A stretch of DNA of 8,039 nucleotides from Candidatus Zixiibacteriota bacterium (GTDB lineage Bacteria; SM23-81): assembly GCA_030628225.1 (NCBI GenBank), contig DAOVRJ010000109.1, forward strand, positions 1-8,039, read 5' to 3'. This document shows, piece by piece, positions 1 to 7,937 of the stretch. The notes under the pieces were generated by a model that was given only the letters and a program-made list of their open reading frames with translations, was not told the DNA's origin and ran no database searches. Made by a program: the position numbers and the translations under genes. Positions within the stretch are counted from its first letter, which is position 1, and each line of letters opens with the position of its first letter.

Positions 1-379
1 CAGCTCTCTCTTCCAGACCGGCGATTCCTTTTCCTTCCAGCACCTCCAACAGCCGGAGCTGGGCTTTCTCACTGATTCCTCCCACAGATTTCAGAAACAG
101 GGTCACTGGAGATTGGCTGACTACTCTTGGCGGGGTCAAGAAGAGGAGCTGCTGAATTTCCAGAAAGTTGATCTCCGAAGAATAACAAGGATATACCTTA
201 AATCCCCTCTCTCCAGGATCTCTGTACCGGTGAATTTGCCGGGCGAGATATTCCTTGCCCACACCGCTTTCCCCCACGATCAACACGTTGGCAAACACCT
301 GACTGGCTCTTTGAGCCAACCTATAAGCTCCCTCCATTGTAAACTCGGAACTAACCTGCTTTGGGACGATGTAATACAT
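1..379 (-). CDS. Degenerate sigma-54-type AAA+ protein, 3' end outside window
   Basis: The reading frame is open from an ATG at 379 to the window edge, giving 126 residues. The start has GGAG (386-389) six bases upstream and an in-frame TGA shortly before it. Residues 30-50 match the start of a sigma-54 activator AAA+ domain, with Walker A GESGVGKE at 36-43 and the following ARQIH. The segment that should hold the ELFG...GAFTGA loop is shortened to a few unrelated residues (about 78-92). The Walker B strand is recognisable (TLFLKSVGGISEKAQLRLLE, from residue 93), but Lys97-Ser98 stand where the family has Asp-Glu. ATP binding may persist; hydrolysis and sigma-54 contact are unlikely. No receiver, GAF or PAS domain precedes the AAA+ part. 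The gene begins 94 bases after the 79-residue membrane protein gene on the same strand, so the two are probably cotranscribed. The C-terminus, where a Fis-type HTH would sit, is not visible. Family assignment is firm; its role is inferred. Confidence 0.82.
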   Translation of the reverse strand, partial: MYYIVPKQVSSEFTMEGAYRLAQRASQVFANVLIVGESGVGKEYLARQIHRYRDPGERGFKVYPCYSSEINFLEIQQLLFLTPPRVVSQSPVTLFLKSVGGISEKAQLRLLEVLEGKGIAGLEERA

Positions 380-473: not shown

Positions 474-713
474 CTAACTGATATATCCCAGCTGAGACAT
501 TACGAAAGATGGCGTTTCCTCTTCACCTTCTTTTTCAGGATCAGATGGAGGATCCTCTTCCGACCATGGAATTCCTGGCGGTGCCGGTTCCGGATCACCC
601 ACGGGCCCAGCCACGAGTAAAGTACTTATTGTCAGCACGAGAACGAAGCTAAACACGAAAACCAATATGAGGGCTTTCCCGAATTCATTCCATCCAGTAT
701 TTGGCGCAGACAT
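474..713 (-). CDS. Small single-pass membrane protein with acidic proline-rich tail
   Basis: This gene encodes 79 residues and I do not recognise the family. Residues 1-13 are polar with Lys13. Residues 14-36 form one uninterrupted hydrophobic segment (ALILVFVFSFVLVLTISTLL and following). Residues 37-69 are dominated by Pro, Glu and Asp. Lys before the segment and the acidic tail after it predict N-inside, C-outside topology. The start is well supported: AAGGAGGG (723-730) lies nine bases before the ATG. A consensus sigma-54 promoter (771-786) is about 60 bases upstream with no gene between, so expression is probably sigma-54-dependent. The degenerate AAA+ gene follows 94 bases downstream on the same strand. 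A sensor partner, small secretion or envelope component, or stress peptide would all fit; nothing decides between them. Confidence 0.78.
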   Translation of the reverse strand: MSAPNTGWNEFGKALILVFVFSFVLVLTISTLLVAGPVGDPEPAPPGIPWSEEDPPSDPEKEGEEETPSFVMSQLGYIS

Positions 714-722
714 CAGTAACGT

Positions 723-730
723 CCCTCCTT
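723..730 (-). promoter_or_regulatory. Strong Shine-Dalgarno of the 79-residue membrane protein gene
   Basis: AAGGAGGG on the minus strand, nine bases before the ATG at 713. This near-perfect anti-16S match is strong evidence that the short ORF is translated. Confidence 0.8.
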
Positions 731-770
731 CCGTGAACAGTATGAATCGCAGTTAATCGTCTTAGCAAGT

Positions 771-786
771 GGCAAATAATGTGCCA
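771..786 (-). promoter_or_regulatory. Sigma-54 (-24/-12) promoter
   Basis: On the minus strand the sequence reads TGGCAC-ATTAT-TTGCC, matching the RpoN consensus TGGCAC-N5-TTGCW except for the last base, with exact GG-N10-GC spacing. A start about 12 bases past the GC, near 760, would leave a leader of roughly 47 bases before the ATG at 713. It faces the 79-residue membrane protein gene and, beyond it, the degenerate AAA+ gene. The terminator at 792-820 lies immediately upstream and would shield it from read-through. I found no other site of this quality in the window. Confidence 0.82.
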
Positions 787-791
787 AGGCC

Positions 792-820
792 AAAAAAAAC
801 CGTTAGATTCAGCCTAACGG
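792..820 (-). terminator. Intrinsic terminator on the minus strand
   Basis: A perfect 7-bp stem (CCGTTAG at 800-806 with CTAACGG at 814-820, 7-base loop) is followed on the minus strand by eight consecutive T (799-792). It would end transcripts coming from the 1237-1710 gene and the small ORFs behind it, about 400 bases after the last conventional stop codon. The plus strand has no T-run after the stem, so it acts in one direction only. Confidence 0.8.
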
Positions 821-884: not shown

Positions 885-921
885 GTGGCATCTCGCTACT
901 AAAAGTTGCGAAATGCCCCAC
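885..921. promoter_or_regulatory. Long imperfect dyad upstream of the sigma-54 promoter: candidate enhancer or RNA hairpin
   Basis: Half-sites GGCATCTCGC (887-896) and GCGAAATGCC (908-917) are inverted repeats with one mismatch in ten, separated by 11 bases. The match extends outward through GTG/CAC with a two-base bulge. Its centre is about 140 bases upstream of the predicted sigma-54 start (near 760), within the range typical of activator enhancer sites, which are usually dyads. In a minus-strand transcript the mismatch becomes a G-U pair, so a structured 3' UTR element upstream of the terminator at 792-820 is an equal alternative. Confidence 0.45.
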
Positions 922-2136: not shown

Positions 2137-2340
2137 TCATTTCTTCTTCGTTAAAAAACCTGCTGCCTGTTTGATGTGCTGACTAGTGGAAACCAGAAAG
2201 ACGGTGTCCCCCTCTTGCAGAACGTTTCCCCCTCGGGGAATCTGAAAATTGCCCTTCTCCTCATTATAATTTCCCACAAAGACGCACTCATACACGAAGC
2301 TCGAAACGGGGTTAACGGTTTCGATACCGACAGATGAGCT
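2137..2340 (-). pseudogene. C-terminal remnant of a TrkA/RCK_C-type potassium transport protein
   Basis: The minus-strand frame ending at TGA 2137-2139 encodes about 67 residues with the closing pattern of an RCK_C (TrkA C-terminal) domain: VFVGNYNEEKG, then FQIPRGGNVLQEGDTVFLVS, then a final helix HIKQAAGFL and TKKK. The IPRG...L..GD.V..V signature is the ligand-binding RCK_C strand pair. Full TrkA-type proteins have a Rossmann RCK_N domain (GxGxxG) and a complete RCK_C in front. Here the frame carries no such sequence: it runs into repeats at 2340 and reaches a TAA just before 2396 without any ATG. In a complete gene this domain gates a K+ channel or transporter in response to nucleotides. 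The remnant is probably not translated. An RCK_C tail of another transporter is the alternative. Confidence 0.68.
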
Positions 2341-2357
2341 TCGTAAAAACCGGGGTT

Positions 2358-2757: not shown

Positions 2758-5700
2758 TTACTTTGAGCTCTTCATGTTGTACTTGTGCATTTTATATCGC
2801 AGAACACTCTCCCTAATCCCCAGGGATTTAGCGGCTTTCACCTGAACAAAACCATGCTCCCGCAACGATTTCTCGATCGTGGTCCGCTCGATAAAAGCGA
2901 GCAGGTCTTCCAATTTCGAATAACCTGATGGAACGCTGACGGTCATCTCCTGCCCTTCACCAATAACAATAGAGGGTACGTACTCTATGGGGAACAATTT
3001 GCCATCAGCCATTACCACGCCTCGCTGAACGAAGTTCTCCAACTCTCTCACGTTTCCAGGCCAGTCGTACTTCATGAAGGCCTCCATCGCCTCGGCCGAT
3101 ATGATAATCCGCTCCCGTTCATTCTCCAGGCAATACTTGTTCATGAAATAATCAATCAGAAAGGGAATATCCTCCTTACGATCCCGTAGAGGAGGAATGT
3201 TAATGGTCACCGTGTTTAATCTGTAAAAAAGGTCCTTTCTGAATTTCCTCTCAGTGATAGCCCTCTGGGGCTCCTGATTGGTGGCTGAGATAATTCGTAC
3301 ATCAACCTTTATTGTACTGCTTCCTCCTACCCTTTCGAATTCCCGCTCCTGAAGAACGCGCAGAACCTTGGCTTGCGTAGACAGACTCATATCGCAAATC
3401 TCGTCCAAGAAAATGGTCCCGCCATCGGCCAACTCGAATTTCCCCTTTCGGCTCTTAACCCCAGTGGCGATCTTCTCCTCAATGCCGAACAACTCCGTCT
3501 CCAGCAAACTCTCCGTCAGAGCCGCACAATTCACCTTCAGAAACGGTCTGTCCTTTCGAGGACTGGAATAATGAATTAATCTGGCTACCAGTTCCTTGCC
3601 AGTGCCGCTTTCGCCCAACACCAAAACGCTGGCTCTGCTGGGCGAAACCTTCTCGATTACATTGAAGATGTCCTGCATCGTTTTGCTGTTGCCGACGAAA
3701 TTGTCATGCTTATATTTGGTGTTCAGCTCCTTCTTCAGGTACACGTTCTCCCCATAGAGCTGGCTATACAGTTTGGCATTTTCGATGGCCATGGCCGTCA
3801 GGTTGGAGAAAGATTCCAGAAAGGAGATGTCCCGGGCGGAGAAGATGCCCGGCACGCTGCGGTTATCCAGGTAAATGGTGCCGATGATCTTGCCCTTGAT
3901 CTTCAGGGGCACACAGAGAATGGACATAATATTGTACATGGACACGCTCTGCCAGCGATTGAATTGATCATCTTGCAAAGCGTTATCGACAACAATCGGC
4001 TTTCCCAGCATGGCAACGTTTTTCACGGTGCTGCGGCTGATCTCCAGGGCATCCGATAAAGTCTGTTTTTCCATGCTACGCGCTATTTTGACTTGAAAAT
4101 CATCTTGTTCCCAATCGTAAAAGATGATCGCTCCCCTCTCAGCATGTAACATATCGATGGCCAAATCCAAAACCCTTTCTAAAAGAAGATCCAGATCGTG
4201 CATGGAGTTTAGAATCTCACTCATGGTGTAGAGGGTAAACAGCTCTGCGCTCTCCTGCCGATCCAGAACAGCCTGTAAACTCTCCAGTCGTTTCTCTATT
4301 CTGGACATAAAATGTTTCACCCCCAATTTTTGGAAGATCATCAGGGATTCCCTGAAATATCGGATCGATTCCCTAACCCTGAGCCCTTTTTGTTTTGTTG
4401 TGCCCCGCATAAAATAGGTTTTGGCCAATTCATAGCGTGCCGGGAGCTTTTTCAAGATCTCGATGCTCTGGACAAACAACTCATCGGAGCCCGCCTCATT
4501 TCCGGAAAGGGCCTCGATGGTGGCCATAGTCCTGGCAGCCTCTGCCCGCAATAACGCCACTCCCGCTTGCGATGCCCCGGACAGTGACCGACTCCCGAAT
4601 TCCCTCGCTTTATCCAACCGATCCATAGCTAAATAGAGCTCGGCCAAGGCCAGGTCCACCTGCACCAGATCTACTGGATTTTCAAATCTCTCCAGGCAAT
4701 CGCGACTGGCCAGAAGGCTCCGCTCCGCTTTTTGATGATGGCCCTGGTCTACATCCAAACAGCCCAAATTAAATAGGGAGATACATGCACCGACCTCATC
4801 TTTGATCTCCGTCCTGAGCCGCTGAGCCCTTTTATAGTGACCAAAAGCCGCTTTCCACTCGCCTTTTGCTCTGGCCAAATCACCAAAATTATCGTACGAG
4901 GCACCCAGACCATACTTGTTGTCCAACTGCTTCCGGATGCGCAAGGCCTCTTCTTGACAGCGCTCTGCCTCGCTCCACATCCCCCGGTGCATATGCAGGA
5001 TCCCCAAATTGTTGAGCGTGAGGGCCAACCCTTCCAGATCTCCCAGGCGCATCTTGATCCTCTGGCTCTGCAGATAAAAGGTGGTGGCCTGATCCCATTC
5101 GCCGCTCTCAGCGTAAGCCCAGGCTAGATTGTGACAGACCTTCGCCTCGCCAAAAACATCCGCCGTCGTCCTGCGCAGGTGATGACACTCCTGGAACTTC
5201 TCGATGGCCCTCTCTCCTTGCCCCTGGTTTAAGTAGACCAACCCCAGGTTATCGAGAAGAACCGCTATTCTCTCCTGGTCCCCGAGCTCCTGATATATTT
5301 TCAGTGCTCTCTCGTAATAACACTGTGCCTCTTGGTATCGACCTAAAGTCCAGGACACGACGCCCAATCTATTCAATACCTGGGCAGTGTCGGCCCGGTC
5401 TTGTCCCCAGCGAAGCAGTTTCAACGACTTCATCAGCGCCGTCAGAGCACCCTCGTAGTCGGATTTCATCCGGTTGATCCAGCCAATCTCGGCCAATATA
5501 CGCGCCCGAGAAAGGTTCAGGCCGGGGCCATGCGCTTGAGCCAGCGCTTCATCCAGAATAGTTAAAGCTTTCTCGAACTGACTCTGTTTTCGAAAAAGCA
5601 CGGCTCTTTTCCGCTGGAGCTCCATGACAGCGACAGAGCCAGGCTCGACCAGTTGACTGAGAACCCGGTTATAATGTTGAAGGCCCTCGGCATAGCGGCC

Positions 5701-7851
5701 CGACAACGAACAGGAATCCCCCAAAGCTTCCAGGATAGAGGACAACTGACTCTTATCTCCGACAATCTCCTTGGCTTTCAGGGCCTGCATAAAAAGCCGA
5801 TAGACCTCCTCTGGATTAGAGACAGCCCGGGCTCTCTCAGCGGCCTTTGGGGAATACACAGATGACTTGGCATACTCACCGGCCCGATGAAAATGATCGG
5901 CCATAGCCACCAGATCTCTATTGCCTGAAGATCGCCTTTCCAACCGCAGGGCAATATTCCGATGAAGCTTTTTACGAACATCGGGGGCAATGGACTCATA
6001 CAGGCTTTCTCTTAATCCCGTTTTGGCGAAATAATACAAGTTCTCCCGCCCACCAGCGGCTGGTTCCCTGGTCAAAAAACCATCCATCAGAGCGTCTCTC
6101 AAATAGGCATAAAAATTCGACCCGGGGAGAACCAACACTTGCCGGAGATCTTCCAGCCGAAACCCGTCGCCGATCACGGCGGTGGCGGATAGAAGCTCTC
6201 TGACTCCCTGACTCATACCTGCGATGGCAACCTGATTTATGTCATCCAGGGTCCGCGGAAATCTGAGCTGCAGCAGCCGATCGCGATCCAGTGACCAGTC
6301 TCCTGCACAGGGAACCAGTATCTTGTGAGCGCGTATGGCCGCGATGAACTCCTCCACATACAGCGGATTACCCCTGGATTGCTGATAGAGATAGTCTTTG
6401 AGCTTTTCTTCCCCATCCAGCAGCTTGAACCGGGAACGAATCAACTGGGCCACAGCTGGCTTTGTCAGTGGCCGCAACTTTAAAGTGCGCACGGGAGAAC
6501 CCGCTCCTCTTTTCTGGAAAGACAGCAGCGACGACCTTCTTTCTTCATCGAGCCGGGATGCCTGATAACTGGCACAGATCATGATGGGATGGCCAGAGAG
6601 CCGATCCAATAGGTAGTCGAGAAAGGGCAATAGAGCCAGATCACTGGACTCGAGATCCTCGATGAGAAGCAGGGGGGCTCTGGAGAACTGGCTGATTTGA
6701 CGACAGATCAGCTCCCAGGCCCGGTAACCCTCCCCAGGGACCTCACCGGGCACATGGAAAACAGGCATCTCGATAGCCAGGCTGCTCAGCTGTGGAATGC
6801 CCCCACACCCCCAGTTGTGCCCAAACACGGCGGTCCCCTGTAGCTGACAGCTAATGGCAAACTCTTTCAGGAGCCGCGACTTTCCAATCCCAAATTCCCC
6901 CTCTATAAAAACCAGGCGCGCCTCTCCGGCCATCACCTCCTGATGCCATCTACGCAGGCGAGCTATCTGGGACTCTCGGCCCACAAACTGGCTTGGAGGC
7001 AGAATGCCCGTGGCTCGTTCCTGATCACCTGTCAGGGCGTAACCAGCATCCCGGCGCAGGCTGTCCAGAACCGCCGAGGCAGTGGGAAATCGATCCAGAG
7101 GATCTTTCTCCAAAAGCTTGAGCACAATTCTCTCAAGGGCTCCAGGGATCTTCTTATTGTACATCCGGGGAGATTTGGGAATCAGCTCCAGATGATTGCG
7201 CAAAATGCCGTGGGCATCTTTGGCCCGGAAGGGGTTTTCCCCGGTGAGCACCTCGTAGAGAGTAACACCCAGAGAGTAGAGGTCGGCACGATGATCCACG
7301 GCTCCTCCACGAATCATCTCCGGCGCAAAATACTCCAAAGTCCCCGATAATTGAACCCCACCTGCGGCAACCTTCGTCGTGGCCAGGCCAAAATCAACGA
7401 GCTTAGCGATGGGCGGTCCCTGGGGACGGGATTGAAGAAGAATATTGCTGGGTTTCACATCCTGGTGGATGAGACCGTAGGCATGCAAATAATCCAAAGC
7501 CAGGCAGATGTCTGCCAGGATGGAGTAAAAATCGACCTCCGTGATCTTCTGGAAAAGAGACTGATCGAACGGAGGCCCTTTTACGTATTCCATGACAAAA
7601 TACGGTTTCTTCTTTGATGTCAGACCAAAATTTAGTATTTTGACTATGTACGGATGATCAAGCTGACTGAGAAGGGAGAATTCGTCTCGCAGGCTTTGCG
7701 CACCCTCGAGGTCAGCAGAACCAAAACCCAGCACCTTCAAGGCTACCGGGATTTTATCCCCGACCAAATGAGCCTGATATACCGAGCCGATGGATCCTGC
7801 ACCCAATTTTCGACCTATCACGTATCGAGCATCGATGATCCGTGTGCTCAT
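2758..7851 (-). CDS. Ser/Thr kinase - AAA ATPase - TPR - GAF - sigma-54-type AAA+ - Fis HTH regulator
   Basis: This gene encodes 1697 residues from the ATG at 7851, with GAGAG eight bases upstream; a GTG at 7866 adds five residues. Numbering is from the ATG. Residues 9-265 are a Hanks kinase: glycine loop 16-25, Lys39, HQDVKPSN 129-136 (Asp131), DFG 153-155, APE 176-178; the catalytic residues are present, but Gln replaces Arg of HRD. Residues 289 to about 600 are an AAA_16-type ATPase (FVGRE, Walker A GEFGIGKS 318-325, LLLIED ending at 399), as in PknK-like kinases. About 665-1175 hold roughly twelve TPRs with 40-residue spacing. GAF covers about 1205-1362. The sigma-54-type AAA+ domain (1385-1615) has GESGTGKE 1413-1420, Asp1483-Glu1484 and RKDLFYRLN, but KIATGV (1460-1465) in place of GAFTGA. 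A Fis-type HTH is at 1659-1693. No membrane segment is seen, so it is cytoplasmic. Its targets are unknown. Confidence 0.95.
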   Translation of the reverse strand: MSTRIIDARYVIGRKLGAGSIGSVYQAHLVGDKIPVALKVLGFGSADLEGAQSLRDEFSLLSQLDHPYIVKILNFGLTSKKKPYFVMEYVKGPPFDQSLFQKITEVDFYSILADICLALDYLHAYGLIHQDVKPSNILLQSRPQGPPIAKLVDFGLATTKVAAGGVQLSGTLEYFAPEMIRGGAVDHRADLYSLGVTLYEVLTGENPFRAKDAHGILRNHLELIPKSPRMYNKKIPGALERIVLKLLEKDPLDRFPTASAVLDSLRRDAGYALTGDQERATGILPPSQFVGRESQIARLRRWHQEVMAGEARLVFIEGEFGIGKSRLLKEFAISCQLQGTAVFGHNWGCGGIPQLSSLAIEMPVFHVPGEVPGEGYRAWELICRQISQFSRAPLLLIEDLESSDLALLPFLDYLLDRLSGHPIMICASYQASRLDEERRSSLLSFQKRGAGSPVRTLKLRPLTKPAVAQLIRSRFKLLDGEEKLKDYLYQQSRGNPLYVEEFIAAIRAHKILVPCAGDWSLDRDRLLQLRFPRTLDDINQVAIAGMSQGVRELLSATAVIGDGFRLEDLRQVLVLPGSNFYAYLRDALMDGFLTREPAAGGRENLYYFAKTGLRESLYESIAPDVRKKLHRNIALRLERRSSGNRDLVAMADHFHRAGEYAKSSVYSPKAAERARAVSNPEEVYRLFMQALKAKEIVGDKSQLSSILEALGDSCSLSGRYAEGLQHYNRVLSQLVEPGSVAVMELQRKRAVLFRKQSQFEKALTILDEALAQAHGPGLNLSRARILAEIGWINRMKSDYEGALTALMKSLKLLRWGQDRADTAQVLNRLGVVSWTLGRYQEAQCYYERALKIYQELGDQERIAVLLDNLGLVYLNQGQGERAIEKFQECHHLRRTTADVFGEAKVCHNLAWAYAESGEWDQATTFYLQSQRIKMRLGDLEGLALTLNNLGILHMHRGMWSEAERCQEEALRIRKQLDNKYGLGASYDNFGDLARAKGEWKAAFGHYKRAQRLRTEIKDEVGACISLFNLGCLDVDQGHHQKAERSLLASRDCLERFENPVDLVQVDLALAELYLAMDRLDKAREFGSRSLSGASQAGVALLRAEAARTMATIEALSGNEAGSDELFVQSIEILKKLPARYELAKTYFMRGTTKQKGLRVRESIRYFRESLMIFQKLGVKHFMSRIEKRLESLQAVLDRQESAELFTLYTMSEILNSMHDLDLLLERVLDLAIDMLHAERGAIIFYDWEQDDFQVKIARSMEKQTLSDALEISRSTVKNVAMLGKPIVVDNALQDDQFNRWQSVSMYNIMSILCVPLKIKGKIIGTIYLDNRSVPGIFSARDISFLESFSNLTAMAIENAKLYSQLYGENVYLKKELNTKYKHDNFVGNSKTMQDIFNVIEKVSPSRASVLVLGESGTGKELVARLIHYSSPRKDRPFLKVNCAALTESLLETELFGIEEKIATGVKSRKGKFELADGGTIFLDEICDMSLSTQAKVLRVLQEREFERVGGSSTIKVDVRIISATNQEPQRAITERKFRKDLFYRLNTVTINIPPLRDRKEDIPFLIDYFMNKYCLENERERIIISAEAMEAFMKYDWPGNVRELENFVQRGVVMADGKLFPIEYVPSIVIGEGQEMTVSVPSGYSKLEDLLAFIERTTIEKSLREHGFVQVKAAKSLGIRESVLRYKMHKYNMKSSK

Positions 7852-7937
7852 CCTTCCAACTCTCACATCTGTGCCATATGGCGGGAAAAAGGTGTGTGAC
7901 CTCTCTTTCCGGTCTTAAAAAGATAGGGAACATTTCC

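Follow-up and report, generated by a model that had tools for sequence, protein, structure and literature searches.

A predicted sigma-54 circuit encoding a small, probably exported peptide and a pseudo-AAA+ protein recurs in three little-known bacterial phyla

Does a short contig that carries a sigma-54 promoter, a small open reading frame and a degenerate AAA+ gene beside a large regulator hold a self-contained regulatory circuit? The window analyzed here is an entire 8,039-base contig from a 2.34-Mb draft genome, in which an rpoN gene was found. All genes of interest in the window lie on the minus strand. In the direction of transcription they begin with a 1,702-aa regulator and a 168-aa lipoprotein-like ORF, which are followed by a terminator, a -24/-12 site, a 79-aa ORF and an AAA+ ORF. 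The features are as follows.

2758-7866 (-): regulator, 1,702 aa, assigned by Pfam; 71% identical to the SM23_81 copy and in a clade with the triad regulators of a second phylum
893-911 (-): candidate enhancer TCGCAACTTTTAGTAGCGA, with the 13-mer TCGCAACTTTTAG conserved between the window and SM23_81
792-820 (-): intrinsic terminator, 8-bp stem plus T8, from folding and shuffles
771-786 (-): predicted -24/-12 sigma-54 promoter TGGCACATTATTTGCC, from a motif match; 18 further loci have a corresponding site at a comparable distance
724-732 (-): Shine-Dalgarno sequence GGAAGGAGG, a 9-mer identical in SM23_81 at nearly the same distance
474-713 (-): small protein of 79 aa, exported or anchored in the membrane, whose acidic tail is rich in Pro (GDPEPAPP)
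2-379 (-): pseudo-AAA+ protein of the sigma-54-activator type, cut by the contig end after 126 aa

An earlier note, made from the sequence of this DNA, had described a near-perfect sigma-54 promoter and a transcript 5' end at about 760. The site at 786-771 (-) has one mismatch to TGGCACN5TTGCW and is the only such site in the window, where 0.26 are expected. Within the 130 nt upstream of the 79-aa ORF, the match has a p of about 0.0005. GG and GC are spaced by 10 nt within a TGGCAC-N5-TTGC context, the site stands before a gene, and the start predicted from it, about 12 nt downstream, agrees with a 5' end at about 760. These data support 786-771 (-) as a predicted sigma-54 promoter whose RpoN dependence is read from its sequence.

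The promoter had also been described as lying just behind a terminator. The stem CCGTTAGGCTGAATCTAACGG at 820-800 (-) is followed by T8 at 799-792, with 5 nt between the end of this T run and the -24 hexamer. The 8-bp stem folds at -9.1 kcal/mol (z -1.6), and 11 of 200 shuffles fold equally well. Terminator-like matches in the window are not above chance as a class (6 found, 8.4 expected); this one is the only match with an 8-T run. No terminator was seen at the equivalent place in the relative. The description of the unit as insulated holds for read-through and no further, since the terminator stands between the promoter and the best enhancer candidate, at 911-893 upstream. With the elements in this order, the terminator can stop read-through and still leave enhancer looping possible.

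The same order is found in Zixibacteria SM23_81, where a regulator and a lipoprotein gene are followed by a -24/-12 site, an 80-aa small ORF and a pseudo-AAA+ gene. When we scanned with the loop region of the regulator, the same three genes appeared in four more genomes, and two further genomes of their phylum, a second small one, bring the triad to 6 of its 8 genomes. In all eight loci of the two phyla, the small ORF is directly followed by an AAA+ gene that is Walker-A-positive and lacks L1. The earlier note had proposed to look for the small protein beside Walker-B-less AAA+ genes in other genomes, and would have given up the idea had homologues never adjoined them. Adjacency in 8 of 8 loci is repeated co-occurrence of the kind that it had named as support for a system. 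A third group comes from Eisenbacteria. Behind each of 11 related regulators there is a small ORF, about 85-120 residues long, that begins with a signal peptide; most of these signal peptides end in AxA/Q (cleavage is marked by a slash throughout). An even more degenerate AAA+ protein of 160-185 aa, with Walker A and the lid lost, lies beside 10 of the 11. Its assignment is based on Pfam and NCBIfam; of four proteins tested, three have PF00158 matches at 6e-10 to 2e-15 and one has a weak match. Two loci depart from the pattern: another ORF intervenes in L122, and the pseudo-AAA+ gene is cut by the contig end in L118.

The promoter recurs along with the genes. A GG-N10-GC-type site precedes the peptide start in 19 of 19 loci, ending 34-62 nt from the start codon; these loci are related and do not count as 19 independent events, and the sequence around the site differs strongly between phyla. 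An equally good site at that distance occurs at 0.8% of random positions and at 6 of 109 ORF starts, some of which are triad ORFs. For the top -24/-12 match ahead of the small ORF, p is ≤0.016 in each of the eight loci of two phyla and 0.003-0.044 in the 11 Eisenbacteria loci. Most Eisenbacteria -12 elements read TCGC rather than TTGC, and a few differ further. Our literature searches found no description of this arrangement. Recurrence of the triad in three little-known phyla, as judged from these comparisons, points to a self-contained, undescribed circuit rather than to chance.

What does the operon encode? Its first gene, 713-474 (-), follows the Shine-Dalgarno sequence, and its 43-residue tail contains 11 D/E, 10 P and one K/R, which bears out the description of a well-marked 79-codon gene with an acidic Pro-rich tail. 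The product is 46% identical to its homologue in SM23_81, a genome of the same family, and has no match in Pfam or NCBIfam. A single-pass membrane protein, as first proposed, is one possible reading; against it, the hydrophobic stretch in most homologues looks like a cleavable signal peptide. Judged by eye, from a basic n-region, a hydrophobic core and a small-x-Ala site, signal peptides are clear in most second-phylum and Eisenbacteria homologues (CFA/D, AxA/Q), and the window copy has a possible but ambiguous cleavage site, LVAG/P. In the second phylum, the signal-peptide-like N-terminus (e.g. CFA/DG) is followed by an acidic segment that contains GDP. The small peptides of other phyla are only 19-31% identical to that of the window; at such short lengths and such divergence, no strong case for homology between phyla can be made. 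Weak small-protein matches in unrelated genomes were discarded after a check for small ORFs with the GDP motif. These sequences suggest that, in most members, export of the small product as a peptide is more likely than anchoring in the membrane.

The second gene, 379-2 (-), runs off the contig, with its 3' end outside the window. Its 126 visible residues match Pfam Sigma54_activat at 1.7e-12. In an alignment with ordinary enhancer-binding proteins, Walker A is kept (GESGVGKE), about 12 residues covering GAFTGA (L1) are missing, and Walker B reads LFLKSV, with its acids replaced. By the GAFTGA and Walker B criteria, the protein is an enhancer-binding-protein homologue and not a functional activator, much as the earlier note had it in calling the gene a dead sigma-54-type AAA+. 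The SM23_81 homologue is 240 aa long and consists of an AAA+ domain and lid without an HTH; a comparison of its AlphaFold model (pLDDT 72) gave fold matches to the NtrC1 and PspF AAA+ domains. Differences between the window and SM23_81 copies fall mostly at third codon positions (28/32/63), indicating that the pseudo-AAA+ gene is maintained under selection.

The six second-phylum pseudo-AAA+ proteins have lost the hydrolysis residues and keep an arginine (LYxR) aligned with what we take, by reference to PspF, to be the second arginine finger. This residue is lost in the SM23_81 and Eisenbacteria proteins. Retention of LYxR without hydrolysis residues would suit a non-hydrolysing ring member, and it is not universal. 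The pseudo-AAA+ proteins form one clade (99/98), with long branches and a bootstrap not fully settled. Recent duplication of the regulator's own AAA+ domain was rejected as their origin, as they resemble that domain no more closely than they resemble ordinary proteins of the NtrC type. A single-sequence genome-wide scan with the pseudo-AAA+ protein as query found nothing. With a profile run over 386 genomes of many families, full-length members were found in only two phyla among the matches listed, and the other matches listed all lay inside long frames of ordinary enhancer-binding proteins.

In six second-phylum genomes, one to three enhancer-like CGTAY-N4-RTACG palindromes per locus lie upstream of the promoter, at about 170-185 nt before the peptide start and in most loci also at 340-360 nt. 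The motif occurs nowhere else in about 60 kb around these loci, and the whole genomes (2.3-3.3 Mb) contain only 2-5 copies. Six off-locus copies that we examined are mostly inside coding frames. Because the palindromes are rare in the genome and mostly at this locus, the second-phylum regulator looks dedicated to the operon, which lends support to the word self-contained in the earlier proposal.

In the window, about 125 bp separate the candidate enhancer from the -24 element downstream of it. The 13-mer that it shares with SM23_81 is at -198/-203 from the ATG and is part of a palindrome in the window. The window and the SM23_81 locus each have a single copy of the pattern GCRAC-N5-GTHGC, and we tentatively propose it as the enhancer motif of the window family, on weaker evidence than for the second-phylum palindromes. 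In the Eisenbacteria locus L054/L121, pairs of the CGTAG-N4-CTACG type occupy the same relative place and overlap the last codons of the regulator. Enhancer-like palindromes overlap these codons in L121 and in other Eisenbacteria loci. The C-terminal tail of the Eisenbacteria regulator may thus be encoded by its own predicted binding sites.

The regulator combines a Ser/Thr kinase, an AAA_16 (STAND-type) domain, TPRs, GAF, a sigma-54 AAA+ domain and a Fis-type HTH (Pfam). Regulators of the PknK/AcoK type are alike in joining a kinase or STAND ATPase to TPRs, and differ in carrying a LuxR-type HTH where this protein has a sigma-54 AAA+/Fis output module. The match to Sigma54_activat is strong (3e-65) and is accompanied by HTH_8, and Walker A (GESGTGKE) and Walker B (IFLDEI) are intact. 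The earlier note was right to place a large regulator of the same family nearby, as this sigma-54 AAA+/Fis protein of 1702 aa is encoded upstream; what has to be corrected is the loop. At the position of GAFTGA the protein reads KIATGV, with a one-residue deletion. By published criteria, changes in the GAFTGA loop often abolish sigma-54 activation (PMC3162934). DVUA0100 of Desulfovibrio vulgaris, which has a GVATGV loop and is likewise linked to sigma-54 promoters, is predicted to be active (PMC4641369, excerpt). It differs from the present regulator in being a predicted governor of type III secretion genes, and the excerpt reports no peptide/pseudo-AAA+ pair.

We compared 68 AAA+ domains in a tree. 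Nearly all proteins with an xATxV loop fall in a single clade (97/94), within which those belonging to the triads of the two phyla group together as a clade of their own (97/88). Two Eisenbacteria triad regulators are also within the xATxV clade, not demonstrably beside the other triad regulators. The xATxV proteins of L048, L130-L135, L143 and L158, ordinary response regulators included, belong to one supported clade across several phyla. Such a grouping suggests a functional subclass rather than decay, and the xATxV clade is possibly an overlooked subclass of enhancer-binding proteins. A long kinase-xATGV regulator of another lineage (G255) has no triad, so architecture and loop alone do not predict one.

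We favor, at somewhat better than even odds, a dedicated and autogenous sigma-54 circuit whose output is an exported peptide and whose feedback subunit is the pseudo-AAA+ protein. The cytoplasmic kinase/STAND/TPR/GAF/AAA+/Fis regulator would integrate a signal, bind palindromes upstream of the neighboring -24/-12 promoter and presumably activate a short operon for the small exported acidic peptide and the pseudo-AAA+ protein. The peptide would be an envelope or extracellular output. The pseudo-AAA+ protein probably binds nucleotide in some members; lacking the sigma-54-contacting loop and hydrolysis residues, it would most likely insert into or cap the AAA+ ring of the regulator and tune it; negative feedback is the simplest form this could take. 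Sequence comparison gives good support for the wiring (gene order, promoter, enhancer-like sites confined to the locus, maintained coding and motif loss), and we infer the functions of the peptide and the pseudo-AAA+ protein. The circuit proposed in the earlier note is thus retained on the strength of the triad and the -24/-12 sites in all 19 loci, and its envelope output or sensor becomes an exported peptide more probably than a membrane anchor.

Heteromeric rings have precedents in HrpR/HrpS, FleQ/FleT and VnfA1/VnfA3 (PMC9542535). In these systems two sigma-54-type AAA+ proteins act together and one is sometimes reduced, FleT being without sensor and DNA-binding domains. Here the reduced partner has in addition lost Walker B and the sigma-54 loop, and its gene shares an operon with an exported-peptide gene; joint action is what we infer. 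The loss of the arginine finger in SM23_81 and Eisenbacteria, and of Walker A in Eisenbacteria, implies that ring co-assembly need not work alike everywhere. Counting against the dedicated circuit are the KIATGV loop, where sigma-54 activation normally needs GAFTGA, the strong dissimilarity of the peptides between phyla and the tentative status of the enhancer motif in the window family. A stronger form, in which the exported peptide feeds back on the kinase/TPR regulator while a pseudo-AAA+ subunit with the same fold as the activator gates the ring, would be a previously undescribed class of sigma-54 autoregulation in uncultured phyla; we regard it as rather unlikely.

The arrangement resembles the Psp system, where a small protein of the envelope and a cytoplasmic one are encoded by a sigma-54 operon beside its activator. 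In that system PspA binds to the ring of PspF and inhibits it (PMC3128695). By analogy with PspB/C and PspA acting on PspF, the small protein could be a sensor or effector of envelope stress, and the pseudo-AAA+ protein a cytoplasmic anti-activator through which the state of the small protein reaches the regulator. D-Ala-D-Ala carboxypeptidase-like ORFs downstream in some Eisenbacteria loci fit such a module, as do clpX and dnaK flanking the second-phylum loci. It is nonetheless doubtful, because the window proteins and relatives scanned include no homologue of PspA, PspB or PspC, and most peptides carry a cleavable signal peptide of typical form and so would not remain in the membrane to signal inwards. 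The activator also differs, being a 1700-aa kinase/TPR/GAF protein, and a pseudo-AAA+ protein would take the part of the restrainer. The peptide could instead act as an autoinducer: after re-import or sensing, it would be recognized by the TPR/STAND part of the regulator, with the pseudo-AAA+ protein damping the loop. A short exported peptide does adjoin a TPR/STAND regulator, apparently its controller, in every locus, and the second-phylum regulator appears to have one main target. We think this unlikely, as the loci contain no peptide importer or processing protease, the predicted mature peptides of about 40-75 residues are long for a pheromone, and their sequences vary strongly.

The departure of KIATGV from GAFTGA also raises the question of whether the promoter, still dependent on sigma-54, is driven by another activator of the genome, the regulator being a repressor or acting with sigma-70 and its adjacency reflecting co-inheritance only. 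At least seven further sigma-54 AAA+ proteins are encoded in the window genome. This reading is quite unlikely, given palindromes beside the promoter that are mostly confined to the locus and the supported cross-phylum clade of xATxV proteins. Finally, any single element could be fortuitous in one 8-kb contig. That an unrelated small ORF, an AAA+ fragment and a promoter-like sequence came together by chance is extremely improbable and is already contradicted by the comparisons, in which order, promoter and codon-position pattern are conserved across three phyla.

The dedicated circuit would be compact, apparently single-target and movable to a laboratory host for testing. A natural pseudo-AAA+ partner for a sigma-54 activator would bear on how inactive subunits tune AAA+ rings, and the xATGV loop class, discarded as non-functional by published rules, gains candidate natural target promoters.

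The surroundings of the triad vary. The lipoprotein-like ORF at 1743-1237 (-), 168 aa, is 63% identical to its SM23_81 copy; it has no match in Pfam or NCBIfam and was not seen in triad loci other than these two. SM23_81 has intact trkH and trkA between the regulator and the lipoprotein gene. In the window, a trkA remnant remains at 2137-2355 (-), its C-terminal 50-70 or so codons being 62-82% identical to SM23_81 TrkA, and the rest of trkA is gone. The intergenic stretch from the regulator to this remnant (2330-2700) is internally repetitive, e.g. gattcgagactcgagattcg. SM23_81 has an extra 158-aa secreted-looking ORF of no known family between the lipoprotein gene and the promoter (L044:14494-14967), which is absent in the window. 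In the second phylum, a conserved ORF of about 130 aa lies between the pseudo-AAA+ gene and dnaK (L087:1697-2083; L047, L053, L088). It has the look of a nuclease fold (DIEA...IEVET), and Pfam gives a weak match to Hjc.
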